From: Thermodesulfobium narugense DSM 14796
GTDB taxonomy: Bacteria > Thermodesulfobiota > Thermodesulfobiia > Thermodesulfobiales > Thermodesulfobiaceae
Direction: 5' to 3'
Assembly: GCF_000212395.1 (NCBI RefSeq)
Contig: NC_015499.1
Span: 957,501 to 1,021,500 of the forward strand
DNA length: 64,000 bases
The notes under the pieces: generated by a model
Database searches by the model: none
Seen by the model: the letters and a program-made list of their open reading frames with translations, nothing else
What the model was told of the DNA's origin: nothing
Translations under genes and position numbers: made by a program
Shown: positions 1-48,582 of the stretch, in pieces
Numbering within the stretch: position 1 is the first letter of the stretch
Layout of the letters: each line of letters opens with the position of its first letter

Positions 1-269
1 GAGCAAAATGAATCTCTTTTGCAATCGGAGATGTCGTCGTAATATTGCCTTTCTTAGAAATAATCGAATTATCGATGTCCAATACAATTCTACCATCAGC
101 TAGTCTAAAATAATTAAAATTTGGATTACCCTTAACATCGACGAAAACCTCTACCCCATTTTCTGTTGTCTTATAAGAGATATTTTGCACTTTTGGCAGC
201 GTATCAGCATAAGAAATTCCTATATTTGTAAATAAAAAAATTAAAACTAAAAAACTAAAAAAATTTCAT
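1..269 (-). CDS. AMIN-domain exported protein, 5' part (C-terminus outside window), apparent frameshift
   Basis: The start is an ATG at 269 behind a GGGGTGAG ribosome binding site. It reads M-K-F-F and then hits TAG because of a seven-T run (plus-strand A at 257-263). With one T fewer the frame continues as a signal peptide ending near ISYADT, then a beta-rich domain with Y-F-R-L-A-D-G-R-I-V-L-D-I-D. That pattern is typical of AMIN domains, found at the N-termini of PilQ secretins and AmiC-type amidases. The body frame is open to the left edge. The protein would be exported and bind the cell wall. The one-base excess is either a sequence error or a slippage site. PilQ and amidase cannot be told apart here. 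The gene is last in the minus-strand gene run, with its own extended -10 at 360-368. Confidence 0.6.
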
Positions 270-7314: not shown

Positions 7315-8040
7315 TTAACGTGTAAGCTTTAATACTTTCTTTTGTATGGCTATTATCTTTTCTATCCCACTATAAGCAATATAAAGTATCTCGTTCAACT
7401 TCTCTTTGGAAAATGGTTTTTTCTCAGCAGTTCCTTGAATTTCTATAATTTCTCTGTTTTCGTTAGCAATTATATTAAGATCTACATCAGCAATCACGTC
7501 TTCTTCAAAGTTTGGGTCTAATATAACTTCATCGTTTAAAACTGCAACAGAAACAGCTGCTACATAATATTTTAGTGGACTAGTTTTTATTAACCCATAT
7601 TCTTTTAATTTTCTTAATGCAAGTACAAGAGCAACAAAACCACCTGTTATACTAGCACATCTTGTACCTGCATCAGCTTGAATTACTTCTGCATCTATAT
7701 ATATTGTCCTTTCGCCAAGAAGACTTAGATCTACAGCGCTTCTTAGTGATCTGCCTATTATCCTTTGAATTTCTTGATTTCTGCCAGAAATTTTACCAGA
7801 AGTGCTCTCTCTAACATTTCTATCTTGTGTAGCTCGAGGTATCATACTATACTCACTAGTAATCCATCCGCTGCCAGAACCTTTTAAAAAAGGTGGAACT
7901 TTATCCTCGACAGAAGCATTACAAATAACTTTAGTATTACCAAAAGAGATCAAAACACTCCCTTCAGGATAGATTAAAAAATCCTTAATAATTTCAATAT
8001 GTCTTAATTCATCATTTTTTCTTGACTTATCAAGTCTAAT
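7315..8040 (-). CDS. rph: Ribonuclease PH, probable ATT (AUU) start codon
   Basis: RNase PH trims tRNA 3' ends phosphorolytically. The body shows the family's G-S-G-W-I-T-S-E-Y-S-M, R-A-T-Q, R-N-Q-E-I-Q-R-I-I-G-R-S-L-R and D-A-D-A-G-T-R-like segments. The first canonical start in frame (TTG 7953) would remove about 29 conserved residues. Upstream the frame reads I-R-L-D-K-S-R-K-N-D-E-L-R, aligning with the usual M-R-x-D-G-R-x-x-D-E-L-R. No ATG, GTG or TTG lies between there and the in-frame stop at 8071-8073. ATT at 8038-8040 sits nine bases after GAGGAG, so I infer an AUU start. The product has 241 residues, normal for RNase PH. Confidence 0.85.
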   Translation of the reverse strand: MRLDKSRKNDELRHIEIIKDFLIYPEGSVLISFGNTKVICNASVEDKVPPFLKGSGSGWITSEYSMIPRATQDRNVRESTSGKISGRNQEIQRIIGRSLRSAVDLSLLGERTIYIDAEVIQADAGTRCASITGGFVALVLALRKLKEYGLIKTSPLKYYVAAVSVAVLNDEVILDPNFEEDVIADVDLNIIANENREIIEIQGTAEKKPFSKEKLNEILYIAYSGIEKIIAIQKKVLKLTR

Positions 8041-8062
8041 TTTTAAACACTCCTCTCGAATT

Positions 8063-30868: not shown

Positions 30869-30887
30869 ATATATACCTCATTTATAT
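30858..30887 (+). promoter_or_regulatory. Candidate smc promoter
   Basis: TTGACG (30858-30863) followed 17-18 bases later by TTTATA/TTATAT (30881-30887) is a reasonable promoter, giving a leader of about 45 bases before the inferred smc start. A perfect TATAAT at 30919-30924 lies too close to the ribosome binding site to act for smc as annotated. The region is very AT-rich, so confidence is low. Confidence 0.3.
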
Positions 30888-30938
30888 GTTATCATTATAT
30901 TTCATTATATCAAAAACATATAATTTTGGAGGAGAAAA

Positions 30939-33900
30939 ATTTATCTTCAAAATTTAAGAATATTTGGTTTTAAAAGCTTTTATAAAGAATTTATATTCGA
31001 ATTTGACAAAAAGTTAAATGTAATAATTGGGCCAAACGGTTCTGGTAAAAGCAATATTGGGGAGAGTATAAAATGGGCACTTGGCGGTAGAATTTCTTCA
31101 ATCAGAGCAGATTCTTCGATTGAATTATTGTTTTCAGGATATAAGAATTTTAAACCTGTAAATTATTGTGAAGTCGAGATAAACTTTTCTGATGAATTAA
31201 AAGAAAACAATACTGAGCTAAACATAAAAAGATACATGTCAAGAGGTGGAATTAATAATTATTACGTAAACAACGTAGAAGTTCAAAAAAAACAAATGAC
31301 AGACATACTCAGGCCTTTAGGCTTAGGTTCAACTCTTTTTTTAATTATTGATCAAGGTACAGTTGATAAAATCCTAAACTTAAATTCTGATCAACTTTGT
31401 CAAATATTCTTAGAATCCTTAGGATATGGAAACTATAAAGCAGAAAAAGCTGAGTTAGAGTCAAAAATTTTAGAAAAAGAAGAGCAAATTGAAACTTTCA
31501 ACTTAGAGTTGAAAAAAAACAAATCAAGGCTAGAAGTTCTTTATAAAGACTTGAAGATATATGACATTTATGTTGAAATTTCTAATAAAATTGATTTGCT
31601 GAAAAAAGAATTAGTTTTTAGAGAATATAACGAATTAAAAAATGAGAAGCTAAATACTGAAAAAGAACAAATAGATATCGAAAAAGAGCATTCAAAACTG
31701 CTAAATTATAAAAAAGAAATTGAAAACAAATATTTAAAATTTAAAGAATTAAATGAGAACATCGAGAATGAAATAAACATAAAAAGATCTATTTTAGAAA
31801 AAATCAACGAAGAAATCCATAAGAACGAAATTTCTCTAGAAAGATTAGATGGTCAAATTAAACTACTTGAATCCAAACTTGATTCAAATATTAAAATTAT
31901 TAATACAAAAAAAGATGAAATAAAAACAATAAATTTGAATAATTCAGAAAATATCAAAAAATTAAAAAATTTAAAAGATTTTTTGCCAGATACACTTAAG
32001 GAAAAAGACCCTAGTGAAATTTTACAATTACTTAATGTTTTCGAAAAAAATATTTCAGAAATTGAAAGAAATAATTCACTATTAAAAGAGCTTGAATCCA
32101 AAAAAATAACCCTCAATCATTTCACTAATGAATTAGAGATTAATAAAGCTTCTTTAGAGAAGATATCAACTAAATTATATGAAAAACAAAAAGAACTTAT
32201 GATTTTAGAAGAACAATTTAATAATAATATTATGAAACTAAAAAATATAAATAAAACATTAGAAAAGGATCAAATATTAGAAGAAAAAAGATTAAGTGAA
32301 AAAAATGAGCTTATCAATTATTTAACAACTAAAGTAAGTGGTATTTTAGGTTTTATAGAAGACTTATATAGTACAGAAGAAAAATACAATATTGCAGTAA
32401 GCGTTGCGCTAGGCAGTTTTAAAAAATCTCTAGTTTTGCAAACTAAAAGTGAATTAAATAATCTTAAAAATGCTGTAAAAAGAATAAATAAAAATATAAA
32501 CGTTTTTGTTTTAGATCTTATACCGAATATTTCCCACCAAGATTTTAAGCAAGAAATCCTAAGAAAATATAACTTAAAACGTTTAATTGACCTTATTAAT
32601 TTTGATAGTAAATTAACAAAACTTTTTTATAACCTTATTGGAAATACTTTATTATTAAATTCTTTTGAAGAAGCAATAAAATTAAGAAATAACGAATCAC
32701 TTTGGAAGTTTAGATTAGTAACTTTAGATGGGGAAATTTTTTCAACCAATGGTCAAATACAAATTTTGGACAAAGGTCTAAAAAAGCCAATTAACTTAAC
32801 CGAATATAACGAATTGAAAGCTTCAACAGAAAATTTAAACTTAAATCTTCAAAAAGTAAAAGAAGATATCCAAAAATTAGTTCTTGAACAAAATTCTCTT
32901 AATGCTCAAATAAAAATTATATTACGAGAAAAAGAAAGATTAGAAAAAGAAATTAGCTCTATTGAGCTTACTTTGTCTAACTCAGACAACACCAAAAAAT
33001 CTTTTTATCAATTGGATAAAAACTTATACGATTTAAGAGAAAATTTACAAATAGTCTTCGAACTTAATAATGTAAATGAAAGAATCATAAATAATAAAAA
33101 GAGAGTTCTTAAACTTAATATGGAACTAGAAGAACTAGAAAATAAAAAAATAGAAACAAATAAAGAAATTAATGCTTTAAAAGAAGAACTACAGAAGGAA
33201 AGAAGATTTAAAGAAGAGTCATTACACCGTAAAACAATTCTTGAAAAAGAGATTAAACTTTTAAAAGAACAACAAACTAAATATCTAGAAACAAATTTTG
33301 TAGTAGAATCTAATAAGTTAGCACAAAGAGAATCTGAACTTTTAAAGAAAATTTTTGAAATTAATAATAAAATGCAATTATTAAAAACAAAAATAGAAGA
33401 ATTGATAAATAATAACGAATTTCTTAAAAATATTAACGATACCAACATAGAAATGTTCAAAAATAAGAATTATAAAAATTATTCAACTGAGGAACTCCAA
33501 AGTACTTTTAACATGCTTTTAAAACAAAGAGATGAATTAGGACCTATAAATTTTAAAGTTAAAGAAAATTACGATCAGTTAAAAGAGGAAATTGCTGAAC
33601 AGGAAGCAAAAATAAAGAGTATTAAAGAAATTCTTAAAGGATCAAATTTAACTATAAAATCATTAGATAACCATGTAAATAATGAACTTATCAATTCAGT
33701 ACAAAAAATAAATGAAAAATTGGACTCTTACTTTAGAGAAATCTTTAATGGAAATGCCTCATTAATATCTACCAAAAATCCTATAACAAATGGCATCTCA
33801 TTGGAAATAAAAATACCTGGCAGAAAATTTTTAAATTTGAACATGCTATCCGGTGGAGAAAGGGCTATGATTTCAATTTTATTGTATGTTTCTCTAATGG

Positions 33901-34118
33901 AAAATAATCAAACGCCTTTTTGTTATTTTGATGAAGTAGATGCATCATTGGATGAAGCAAATCTTATAAGGTTTGTAAATTTGTTAAATATACTAAAAAA
34001 AAGAAAACAACTGATCGTAGTTTCCCATCAACGTACTACAATGGAAGCAGCAGACAATTTGATTGGTATTTCAAAAAATATGGAAGGAGAAATAAGCTGT
34101 ATTACAACGAAAAGATAG
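30939..34118 (+). CDS. smc: Chromosome segregation protein SMC, probable ATT (AUU) start codon
   Basis: SMC is the condensin ATPase that organises and segregates chromosomes. From ATT 30939 the protein reads I-Y-L-Q-N-L-R-I-F-G-F-K-S-F, matching the usual M-Y-L-K-x-L-x-x-x-G-F-K-S-F. The Walker A GPNGSGKS is at residues 31-38, long coiled coils flank a hinge (about 463-620), and the signature LSGGE (970-974) and Walker B CYFDEVD are near the end. No ATG, GTG or TTG lies between the in-frame TAA before 30924 and the Walker A site; GGAGG precedes ATT by six bases. Length is 1059 residues, short for SMC (about 1180). TTG 31128 would delete Walker A. Confidence 0.93.
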   Translation: MYLQNLRIFGFKSFYKEFIFEFDKKLNVIIGPNGSGKSNIGESIKWALGGRISSIRADSSIELLFSGYKNFKPVNYCEVEINFSDELKENNTELNIKRYMSRGGINNYYVNNVEVQKKQMTDILRPLGLGSTLFLIIDQGTVDKILNLNSDQLCQIFLESLGYGNYKAEKAELESKILEKEEQIETFNLELKKNKSRLEVLYKDLKIYDIYVEISNKIDLLKKELVFREYNELKNEKLNTEKEQIDIEKEHSKLLNYKKEIENKYLKFKELNENIENEINIKRSILEKINEEIHKNEISLERLDGQIKLLESKLDSNIKIINTKKDEIKTINLNNSENIKKLKNLKDFLPDTLKEKDPSEILQLLNVFEKNISEIERNNSLLKELESKKITLNHFTNELEINKASLEKISTKLYEKQKELMILEEQFNNNIMKLKNINKTLEKDQILEEKRLSEKNELINYLTTKVSGILGFIEDLYSTEEKYNIAVSVALGSFKKSLVLQTKSELNNLKNAVKRINKNINVFVLDLIPNISHQDFKQEILRKYNLKRLIDLINFDSKLTKLFYNLIGNTLLLNSFEEAIKLRNNESLWKFRLVTLDGEIFSTNGQIQILDKGLKKPINLTEYNELKASTENLNLNLQKVKEDIQKLVLEQNSLNAQIKIILREKERLEKEISSIELTLSNSDNTKKSFYQLDKNLYDLRENLQIVFELNNVNERIINNKKRVLKLNMELEELENKKIETNKEINALKEELQKERRFKEESLHRKTILEKEIKLLKEQQTKYLETNFVVESNKLAQRESELLKKIFEINNKMQLLKTKIEELINNNEFLKNINDTNIEMFKNKNYKNYSTEELQSTFNMLLKQRDELGPINFKVKENYDQLKEEIAEQEAKIKSIKEILKGSNLTIKSLDNHVNNELINSVQKINEKLDSYFREIFNGNASLISTKNPITNGISLEIKIPGRKFLNLNMLSGGERAMISILLYVSLMENNQTPFCYFDEVDASLDEANLIRFVNLLNILKKRKQLIVVSHQRTTMEAADNLIGISKNMEGEISCITTKR

Positions 34119-34954
34119 AAAAAATTTTTCAAAAGCAGATCGATTATATTAATAATGTTATTAGTAATTTTTTAGCAAAGTTAGAGAGTATTCCCGATAA
34201 AACTAAAGAATTGATAATATATAGTGTCTTAAGCGGTGGCAAAAGAATAAGACCTATTTTTCTAATCAACGTTGTATCAGAATCAAATTACGATACAATG
34301 CTCGGTCTTAAAGAAGCTATATTAGCGCTAGAATTGATGCATTGTGCTTCCCTTATACATGATGATTTACCTGCTATAGATAATGATGACTTCAGACGAG
34401 GCAAATTAACACTACATAAAAAATACGGAGAAGGTCCTGCTATTTTGGCTGGAGATGCACTACAAATAATGCCCTTTAATATACTATCAAATATAGAAGA
34501 TACTAATTTGGCAGTTAAATTAATTAAAATTTTATCAGACAAAGCAGGAGTTAAAGGTATGATTGGAGGACAAATTTTAGACATATCAAATATAGAAAAC
34601 TTTGAACAAATTTATAATATAATGGCCTTAAAAACTGGAGCTTTATTCGAAGCAAGTCTTATGATGGGCGGTGTTGTTGGGCGATTAGAAGATAAACAAA
34701 TAAAAAATCTTGAAGAAATAGGAAAAAGTATTGGGTTACTTTTCCAAATACTAGATGATGAGAAAGATAAGAACAGTGGTGAAAAAGCAAATATATTTAG
34801 ATATGCCAATCAAGAAACTATAGATAGATTAAAAACTCAGCTTATTGATTCTATAATATTAAGTATGCTAGAAAATTTCGACACTGAGTTTTTTGAAAGG
34901 TATAAGTGGCTTTTAATTAACAAATTAGGTTTTAATGGAGAATTATTTGAATGA
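34097..34954 (+). CDS. ispA: Short-chain polyprenyl diphosphate synthase (farnesyl/geranylgeranyl type), probable CTG start
   Basis: This condenses isopentenyl and allylic diphosphates. It shows GGKRIRPIF, the first aspartate-rich motif H-D-D-L-P-A-I-D-N-D-D, G-D-A-L-Q and M-I-G-G-Q-I-L-D. The second motif is F-Q-I-L-D-D-E-K-D. The short D-D-x4-D first motif fits farnesyl-type enzymes. The first canonical start (TTG 34211) would leave only eight residues before GGKR, against about 40 usually. Upstream the frame continues to CTG 34097, which is seven bases after AAGGAG and gives 46 residues. It overlaps the end of smc and is followed by the DUF212 gene with a 20-base overlap. Confidence 0.88.
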   Translation: MYYNEKIEKIFQKQIDYINNVISNFLAKLESIPDKTKELIIYSVLSGGKRIRPIFLINVVSESNYDTMLGLKEAILALELMHCASLIHDDLPAIDNDDFRRGKLTLHKKYGEGPAILAGDALQIMPFNILSNIEDTNLAVKLIKILSDKAGVKGMIGGQILDISNIENFEQIYNIMALKTGALFEASLMMGGVVGRLEDKQIKNLEEIGKSIGLLFQILDDEKDKNSGEKANIFRYANQETIDRLKTQLIDSIILSMLENFDTEFFERYKWLLINKLGFNGELFE

Positions 34955-47138: not shown

Positions 47139-48056
47139 TTAAAGAAAATCTCCAATTTTTAATCTTAAACCATTTAACAAATCTTTTCCTTTTATCCTAT
47201 TTTTCCCTGGAAATTGAACTTCTAACAGAATAATGATCCCCTCTCCTGTTCCGATCTTTAAAGCATCTTTTTCTATACCTACAATTTTAGATGGCTCTCC
47301 TCTACCTTCACTAGCATAAGCCTTATAGACTAAAAGATCACCCTTACTAATTTTTGTCCTAGCAATAGGATCAGGGTTTGCAGCCAAAACCTTCCTTTCA
47401 ATCTCAATTGCCTTTTCATTAAAGGAAAATATCACTTCATCAAGCTTTAACACTTCAGCATATGTTGCTTCTTTGTGGTTTTGGGGGATCTTTTTTAAAC
47501 AACCTTTTTCGATATTGTCTAGAACATGAACAAGCAAATCTGAGCCTTCCTTTGATAAAAAATCCAATAGTTCTCCTGAACTTTTTTTTTCAGAAATTTT
47601 AAATGAAATCTGATCATATATGTCACCTGCATCCAATTCCTTAATAACTTCATGTATTGTTATCCCAAAGATGTTCTCGCCGTTTAAAATAGTCCTTGGA
47701 ACTGGAGCTATACCTCTATACTTTGGTAATAAGGAAGGATGAAGATTAATCATCTTGTATTTAAATAAATCTATTACTCTAGTTGGAATTATTTCACCAA
47801 AAAAGGCTACTACTCCTATTTCAGGATTCAATTCCTTGCAAAATTCTAAAAATTCTTTATCTTTAGTTCTTCCAACATAAAGAGGTATACAATTTTGTTT
47901 CGCAAACGTTTCAACTGGAGATGGTTTTAAAATCTTTTTTCTTCCAAAAGGAGATGGTTTTTTTGTGACTATTCCTACAATTCGATGTTTCGACTGTTCT
48001 AACCTTTCTAAAACGTTTACAGAATAAATAGGTGTTCCAAAGAAAATTAAATCCAA
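47139..48056 (-). CDS. fmt: Methionyl-tRNA formyltransferase
   Basis: Fmt formylates initiator Met-tRNA. The N-terminal formyl-transferase domain begins F-F-G-T-P-I-Y-S-V and has N-L-H-P-S-L-L-P-K-Y-R-G and G-I-T-I-H-E. The C-terminal OB-like domain follows from about 205. Length is 305 residues. It is 28 bases downstream of def, so the formylation and deformylation enzymes are made together; fhs elsewhere in the window supplies one-carbon units. Confidence 0.97.
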   Translation of the reverse strand: MDLIFFGTPIYSVNVLERLEQSKHRIVGIVTKKPSPFGRKKILKPSPVETFAKQNCIPLYVGRTKDKEFLEFCKELNPEIGVVAFFGEIIPTRVIDLFKYKMINLHPSLLPKYRGIAPVPRTILNGENIFGITIHEVIKELDAGDIYDQISFKISEKKSSGELLDFLSKEGSDLLVHVLDNIEKGCLKKIPQNHKEATYAEVLKLDEVIFSFNEKAIEIERKVLAANPDPIARTKISKGDLLVYKAYASEGRGEPSKIVGIEKDALKIGTGEGIIILLEVQFPGKNRIKGKDLLNGLRLKIGDFL

Positions 48057-48084: not shown

Positions 48085-48582
48085 CTAATCTTTCTCAAGT
48101 TTTTCTTTTTGTTTTTTTGCTCTTTCCTCAGCAGTTTCTAAATATTCGGCCTTATCAATAAAGAGGTCACCATTTAGGTGGTCAAATTCGTGCTGAATAA
48201 CTCTAGCTTCATAACCTTCTTTGTTAAGAATTATTGTATCTCCATATATATTCTGAGCCTGAACAATTACTTTAAAAGCTCTCTCTACAGGACCAAAAAC
48301 CCCGGGGACGGATAAACATCCTTCAACATCAACCTCTGAACCCACTTTTTCAATTATTTCAGGGTTTATAACCACCTGCAGATTATCATCTATCTTATAT
48401 ATAAATAATCTGCTCAATTCTCCAACTTGAGGAGCAGCAAGACCTACACCATTATTTGAAATCATCAGGTATTCCATCTCCTCAACCAAACTCTCAAGAT
48501 TTTTATCAAATTGCAATACAGGCAAACTTCTTTTTCTCAAAAGTGAATTGGGATGTGTAATTATTTTTCTTTTGCAAATCAA
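48085..48582 (-). CDS. def: Peptide deformylase
   Basis: Def removes the N-formyl group from nascent proteins. All three metal-site motifs are intact: G-V-G-L-A-A-P-Q, E-G-C-L-S-V-P and Q-H-E-F-D-H-L-N-G. Length is 165 residues. It opens the def-fmt-rsmB-rlmN-ribD unit. Confidence 0.98.
   Translation of the reverse strand: MICKRKIITHPNSLLRKRSLPVLQFDKNLESLVEEMEYLMISNNGVGLAAPQVGELSRLFIYKIDDNLQVVINPEIIEKVGSEVDVEGCLSVPGVFGPVERAFKVIVQAQNIYGDTIILNKEGYEARVIQHEFDHLNGDLFIDKAEYLETAEERAKKQKEKLEKD

Follow-up and report, generated by a model that had tools for sequence, protein, structure and literature searches.

The smc locus

The window, a 64,000-nucleotide stretch of the Thermodesulfobium narugense genome (positions 957501–1021500 of the 1,898,865 bases of its single contig, here G000), was compared with the genomes of three congeners (G001, G002 and G003), the nearest compared genomes outside the genus being related at domain level only. 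On its plus strand lies an smc gene, for the chromosome-organising protein SMC, which, read from an ATT codon at 30939–30941, spans positions 30939–34118 and encodes a protein of 1059 amino acids with matches to the Pfam families SMC_N, AAA_23 and SMC_hinge, all above cut-off. The product has the features of a bacterial SMC, namely an ABC head with a Walker A motif, a hinge and the C-terminal half of the head. Its best NCBIfam match is SMC_prok_B (TIGR02168) at 418.8 bits, yet this is below the equivalog cut-off of 567.35, and we therefore read the protein as a divergent member of the SMC group.

The open frame of smc covers positions 30924–34118 and is closed upstream by an in-frame TAA at 30921–30923, after which the codons read TTT TGG AGG AGA AAA ATT TAT CTT CAA AAT TTA AGA ATA TTT GGT TTT AAA AGC. 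The first ATG, GTG or TTG in this frame is the TTG at 31128–31130, inside the ATPase head, and both the GFKSF motif (30966–30980) and Walker A (GPNGSGKS, 31029–31052) are located 5′ of it. Direct reading thus bears out the original prediction that smc has no canonical start ahead of this TTG and that the two motifs precede it. The Shine–Dalgarno (SD) sequence GGAGG was likewise found where it had been placed, at 30928–30932, with six bases (AGAAAA) between it and the ATT. A shortened SMC beginning at TTG 31128, the codon chosen by the ORF caller as the first canonical one in frame, is extremely improbable, since this codon has no SD, its use would remove Walker A, the aligned codon in G001 is TTA and the region 5′ of it shows protein-level conservation across four genomes.

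The combination of an SD and an ATT is not rare, the pattern GGAGG-N5–8-ATT having seven occurrences in the window where chance predicts 8.4, so no excess over chance, and the evidence for the smc start must consequently rest on position and conservation.

A promoter scan 5′ of the smc start gave no consensus match on the plus strand. The spacer that separates smc from the divergent ferredoxin-like genes (30870–30924) is nearly identical in the three congeners compared whilst the flanking coding sequence has diverged. A hairpin was predicted at 30918–30950 in which the smc GGAGG pairs with UCUUC just within the gene and the ATT lies in the loop, with a stem of 11 pairs in G000 and a similar shape recurring in the congeners. 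A regulatory role for this structure was rejected, its stability in three species (z = −1.1, −0.7 and −0.3) being not beyond chance.

Position and conservation of the smc start codon

Aligned with the solved Smc head chains 5h66 and 3zgx (E ~2e-27), the protein read from the ATT pairs its second residue with theirs, which puts the ATT on residue 1. In a set of smc loci drawn from 26 further families, the position of the ATT was occupied by ATG, GTG or TTG in 23, a count that includes one locus with GTG and an upstream TTG, and in the remaining three a canonical start lay no more than two codons away. The proposal that this ATT occupies the position of the initiator Met in homologues is therefore upheld by both comparisons. 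Within the genus, all four genomes have ATT at this position behind GGAGG with a spacing of 6, in congener proteins whose N-termini are 77–95% identical to that of G000.

These data also bear on two ways in which the original prediction could have failed. One was a sequencing error at 30939–30941, for which nothing was found in favour and which is effectively excluded because the four genomes agree on the ATT although the surrounding bases differ. The other was a canonical start in a different frame, with a ribosomal frameshift into that of smc; an ATG does lie in another frame at ~30887, but an A5/A4 indel between it and smc places it in different frames in different species, the SD is located at the ATT and homologous SMCs have no extension at this point, all of which makes a conserved frameshifted start very unlikely. 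The smc gene hence combines a frame in which no ATG, GTG or TTG could give the full protein with a conserved SD and a candidate codon at the homologous position, and on this sequence evidence it almost certainly starts at AUU rather than at AUG, GUG or UUG.

Other genes with non-canonical starts

The ~58 genes of the window include, besides smc, two others without a canonical start. One is rph (RNase PH), on the minus strand at 7315–8040, read from an ATT at 8040–8038 with the SD GAGAGGAG at 8057–8050; its product matches TIGR01966 at 340 bits with profile position 4 at residue 6, and its start codon is ATT in G000 and G003 and ATC in G002. The other is a farnesyl-diphosphate-synthase-like (ispA-like) gene on the plus strand at 34097–34954, overlapping the 3′ end of smc, which is read from a CTG at 34097–34099 with the SD AAGGAG at 34084–34089 and matches the NF045485 subfamily and polyprenyl_synt. 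CTG and an SD are present at this start in all four genomes, and the first canonical codon is the TTG at 34211.

For a wider survey, two samples of G000, one of 464 kb and another, distinct one of 200 kb (664 kb in all, 35% of the genome), were set against stretches of G003, and genes lacking a conserved canonical start among the comparable ones (204 in the first sample and 181 in the second) were then inspected. Further cases were yebC, a glycosyltransferase gene, a gmhB-like gene and a GNAT acetyltransferase gene, all with ATT, an LL-diaminopimelate-aminotransferase-type (dapL-like) gene with ATC, and rsmI with CTG, the last less certain because its SD is weak. The infC gene, encoding IF3 (locus L042, G000:297995–298549, both IF3 domains present), probably starts at ATA in all four genomes, given that the in-frame GTG falls within the SD. 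When read from these starts, the products of yebC, infC, rsmI and the aminotransferase, acetyltransferase and gmhB-like genes align with their NCBIfam profiles from the first few positions. Sulfotransferase and GtrA-like genes (ATT) and a chromate-transporter-like gene (ATA) are possible additional cases.

The cleanest case is yebC. Bacterial YebC begins M-x-G-H-S-K-W, an N-terminus also visible in matches to the pattern with a canonical start. With ATT, ATC or ATA at the Met position, this pattern found the real yebC in all four genomes of the genus, each time with ATT, whilst in 382 other genomes it gave 13 matches, all to unrelated sequences and none to yebC (0/382). With ATG, GTG or TTG at the same position, matches, one or more of which is not yebC judging from the residues, appeared in 42 of 60 genomes, whilst the genus gave none.

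Counting smc, rph and the farnesyl-diphosphate-synthase-like gene, genes with a conserved AUU, AUC, AUA or CUG start came to ~10 of 385 comparable genes (~2.6%), an approximate figure since cases were selected by inspection, with yebC and smc in other genomes serving as the controls. The start of smc had been put forward as a second AUU candidate; the AUU start itself is strongly supported, but two cases understate what looks like a genus-wide habit. From the sequences sampled, smc seems to be one of at least 10 such genes in a genus that uses normally avoided start codons far above the usual bacterial frequency.

SD context and the translation machinery

In G000, an SD of 5 to 8 matching bases precedes nine of the ten non-canonical starts, the spacing being 5 to 8 in most cases, compared with 85 of 204 comparable genes that have both a conserved canonical start and an SD of at least 5 (42%; Fisher p = 0.003, where the SD had partly aided recognition of the non-canonical cases and the scoring rules differed slightly). 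A strong SD may compensate for a weak codon, by analogy with what has been reported for S. aureus cvfC1 and ccpN (PMC13009471). Enrichment of codons at SD distance was clear for ATG, TTG and GTG across 410 genes, and ATT was not above background in either the 410 or the 204 genes, the method being too weak for a minority class. TTG starts are themselves very common, with 34 of 121 SD-supported genes in G000:557501–1021500 having TTG in both G000 and G003 (ATG 66, GTG 10).

On the tRNA genes read (most of 42), a special initiator tRNA was rejected, each of the four genomes having a single initiator anticodon-loop match, GGGCTCATAACCC, which is normal. No tRNA-Ile(GAU) was found among the tRNA genes read. 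ARAGORN predicted a selenocysteine tRNA (locus L121, near G000:244503), so that an in-frame TGA may encode selenocysteine in some genes of G000. Within the window, a formyltransferase-like gene (47139–48056) and a deformylase-like gene (48085–48582) were identified by eye. In a comparison of 20 sequences, the IF3 of the genus departs from near-invariant residues such as E. coli R20 (Q), G167 (S/T) and R168 (K), and the score of its C-domain is among the lowest of 46 genomes. Several of the changes are mild, for example F at position 75, which is also found in the solved chain 5me0_Y. These divergent residues offer a lead for relaxed start selection, with a putative effect.

How the smc start may be read

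Initiation at smc would have the GGAGG hold the 30S subunit six bases 5′ of AUU 30939, where the formyl-Met initiator tRNA (anticodon CAU) would read the AUU with a mismatch at the third position. SMC would then still begin with Met, and its output would probably be below that from an AUG. We are confident that smc is translated from AUU 30939 as one instance of a genus-wide habit in which AUU, AUC, AUA or CUG serves as the start of ~2–3% of genes, for the most part with a strong SD ahead of it. That ribosomes initiate at these codons, with an output below AUG and a lineage tolerance above that of most bacteria, is what we infer from the genomes compared. A stronger version, in which dozens of genes would use AUU, AUC, AUA and CUG as a regular additional set of start codons owing to intrinsically relaxed discrimination by IF3 or the 30S P site, is conceivable and would be a tentative proposal.

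The original prediction had tied SMC levels to IF3 activity, and selection could indeed maintain the AUU as a means of raising SMC synthesis when IF3 activity drops, in the manner of infC and sigR. Consistent with this, all four genomes retain the ATT of smc, the genus has an IF3 whose own gene, infC, probably begins with AUA, and non-canonical starts are repressed by IF3 in E. coli and Streptomyces (PMC5472188). Retention of the ATT is, however, weak evidence of selection, since ordinary isoleucine ATT codons have a probability of 0.81 (G003) and 0.57 (G002) of being kept. The start of rph alternates between ATT and ATC. AUU, AUC, AUA or CUG starts occur in at least nine further genes with no apparent relation to one another, so that nothing marks SMC out for control by IF3. 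The dapL-like gene leans the other way from smc and rph, its ATC being kept in three of three genomes against 35% (G003) and 18% (G002) for ordinary ATC codons, which points towards selective keeping. We regard IF3-dependent tuning of smc as unlikely, and a specific link between IF3 and SMC as possible by analogy. The absence of an obvious common function among the affected genes favours tolerance across the lineage over a switch specific to SMC.

Comparison with known systems

Non-canonical starts as a kind are already known, and it is their density and genus-wide conservation that appear undescribed in the literature searched, where the single paper to mention Thermodesulfobium together with a start codon deals with selenoprotein prediction. 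CUG makes up 0.024% of bacterial starts (PMC11497404), and of 61,358 reconstructed ancestral AUG starts in other prokaryotes one changed to AUU (~1.6e-5 per start) and two to CUG (PMC5622118).

Among the closest parallels are the AUU, AUC or AUA starts of infC in E. coli, Streptomyces and S. aureus (PMC5472188, PMC13009471), which resemble smc in having an AUU-type start, with a strong SD in S. aureus, and the infC of the present genus looks alike; they differ in that infC controls itself via IF3, whereas any such feedback on smc would be hypothetical. In S. aureus, the starts of cvfC1 (AUU) and ccpN (AUA) were shown by Ribo-Ret and reporters and have ~10% of the activity of AUG in poor medium (PMC13009471). 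As with smc, these non-canonical starts lie behind an extended SD and are conserved within the genus; unlike smc, they are experimentally established, and they were the only two new cases reported there besides infC (PMC13009471). The E. coli pcnB gene (Binns and Masters 2002, as cited in PMC13009471) shares an AUU start with smc and, according to that citation, the start limits translation of a housekeeping gene, although it is a lone gene in an organism in which such starts are exceptional. Streptomyces sigR has a GUC start with a strong RBS, AGGAGGTG, and its repression by IF3 was demonstrated by experiment (PMC5472188). It is like smc in its strong RBS, its conservation within the genus and in that annotation missed the non-canonical start, and unlike it in the codon used and in the experimental support for IF3 repression.

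A genus in which ~2–3% of genes, widely conserved ones included, have such starts would be a natural system for studying what IF3, the 30S subunit and the strength of the SD contribute to the fidelity of start selection. Gene finders restricted to ATG, GTG and TTG would truncate or mis-start dozens of proteins of the genus, including SMC, YebC, RNase PH and IF3.

A gene for an exported-looking protein at G000:956716–957765 (window ~187–265, minus strand) has no start in its own frame. In G000 and, at a different offset, in G003, an out-of-frame ATG behind a GGTGAG-type SD precedes seven consecutive T, a hint of slippage or frameshifting.
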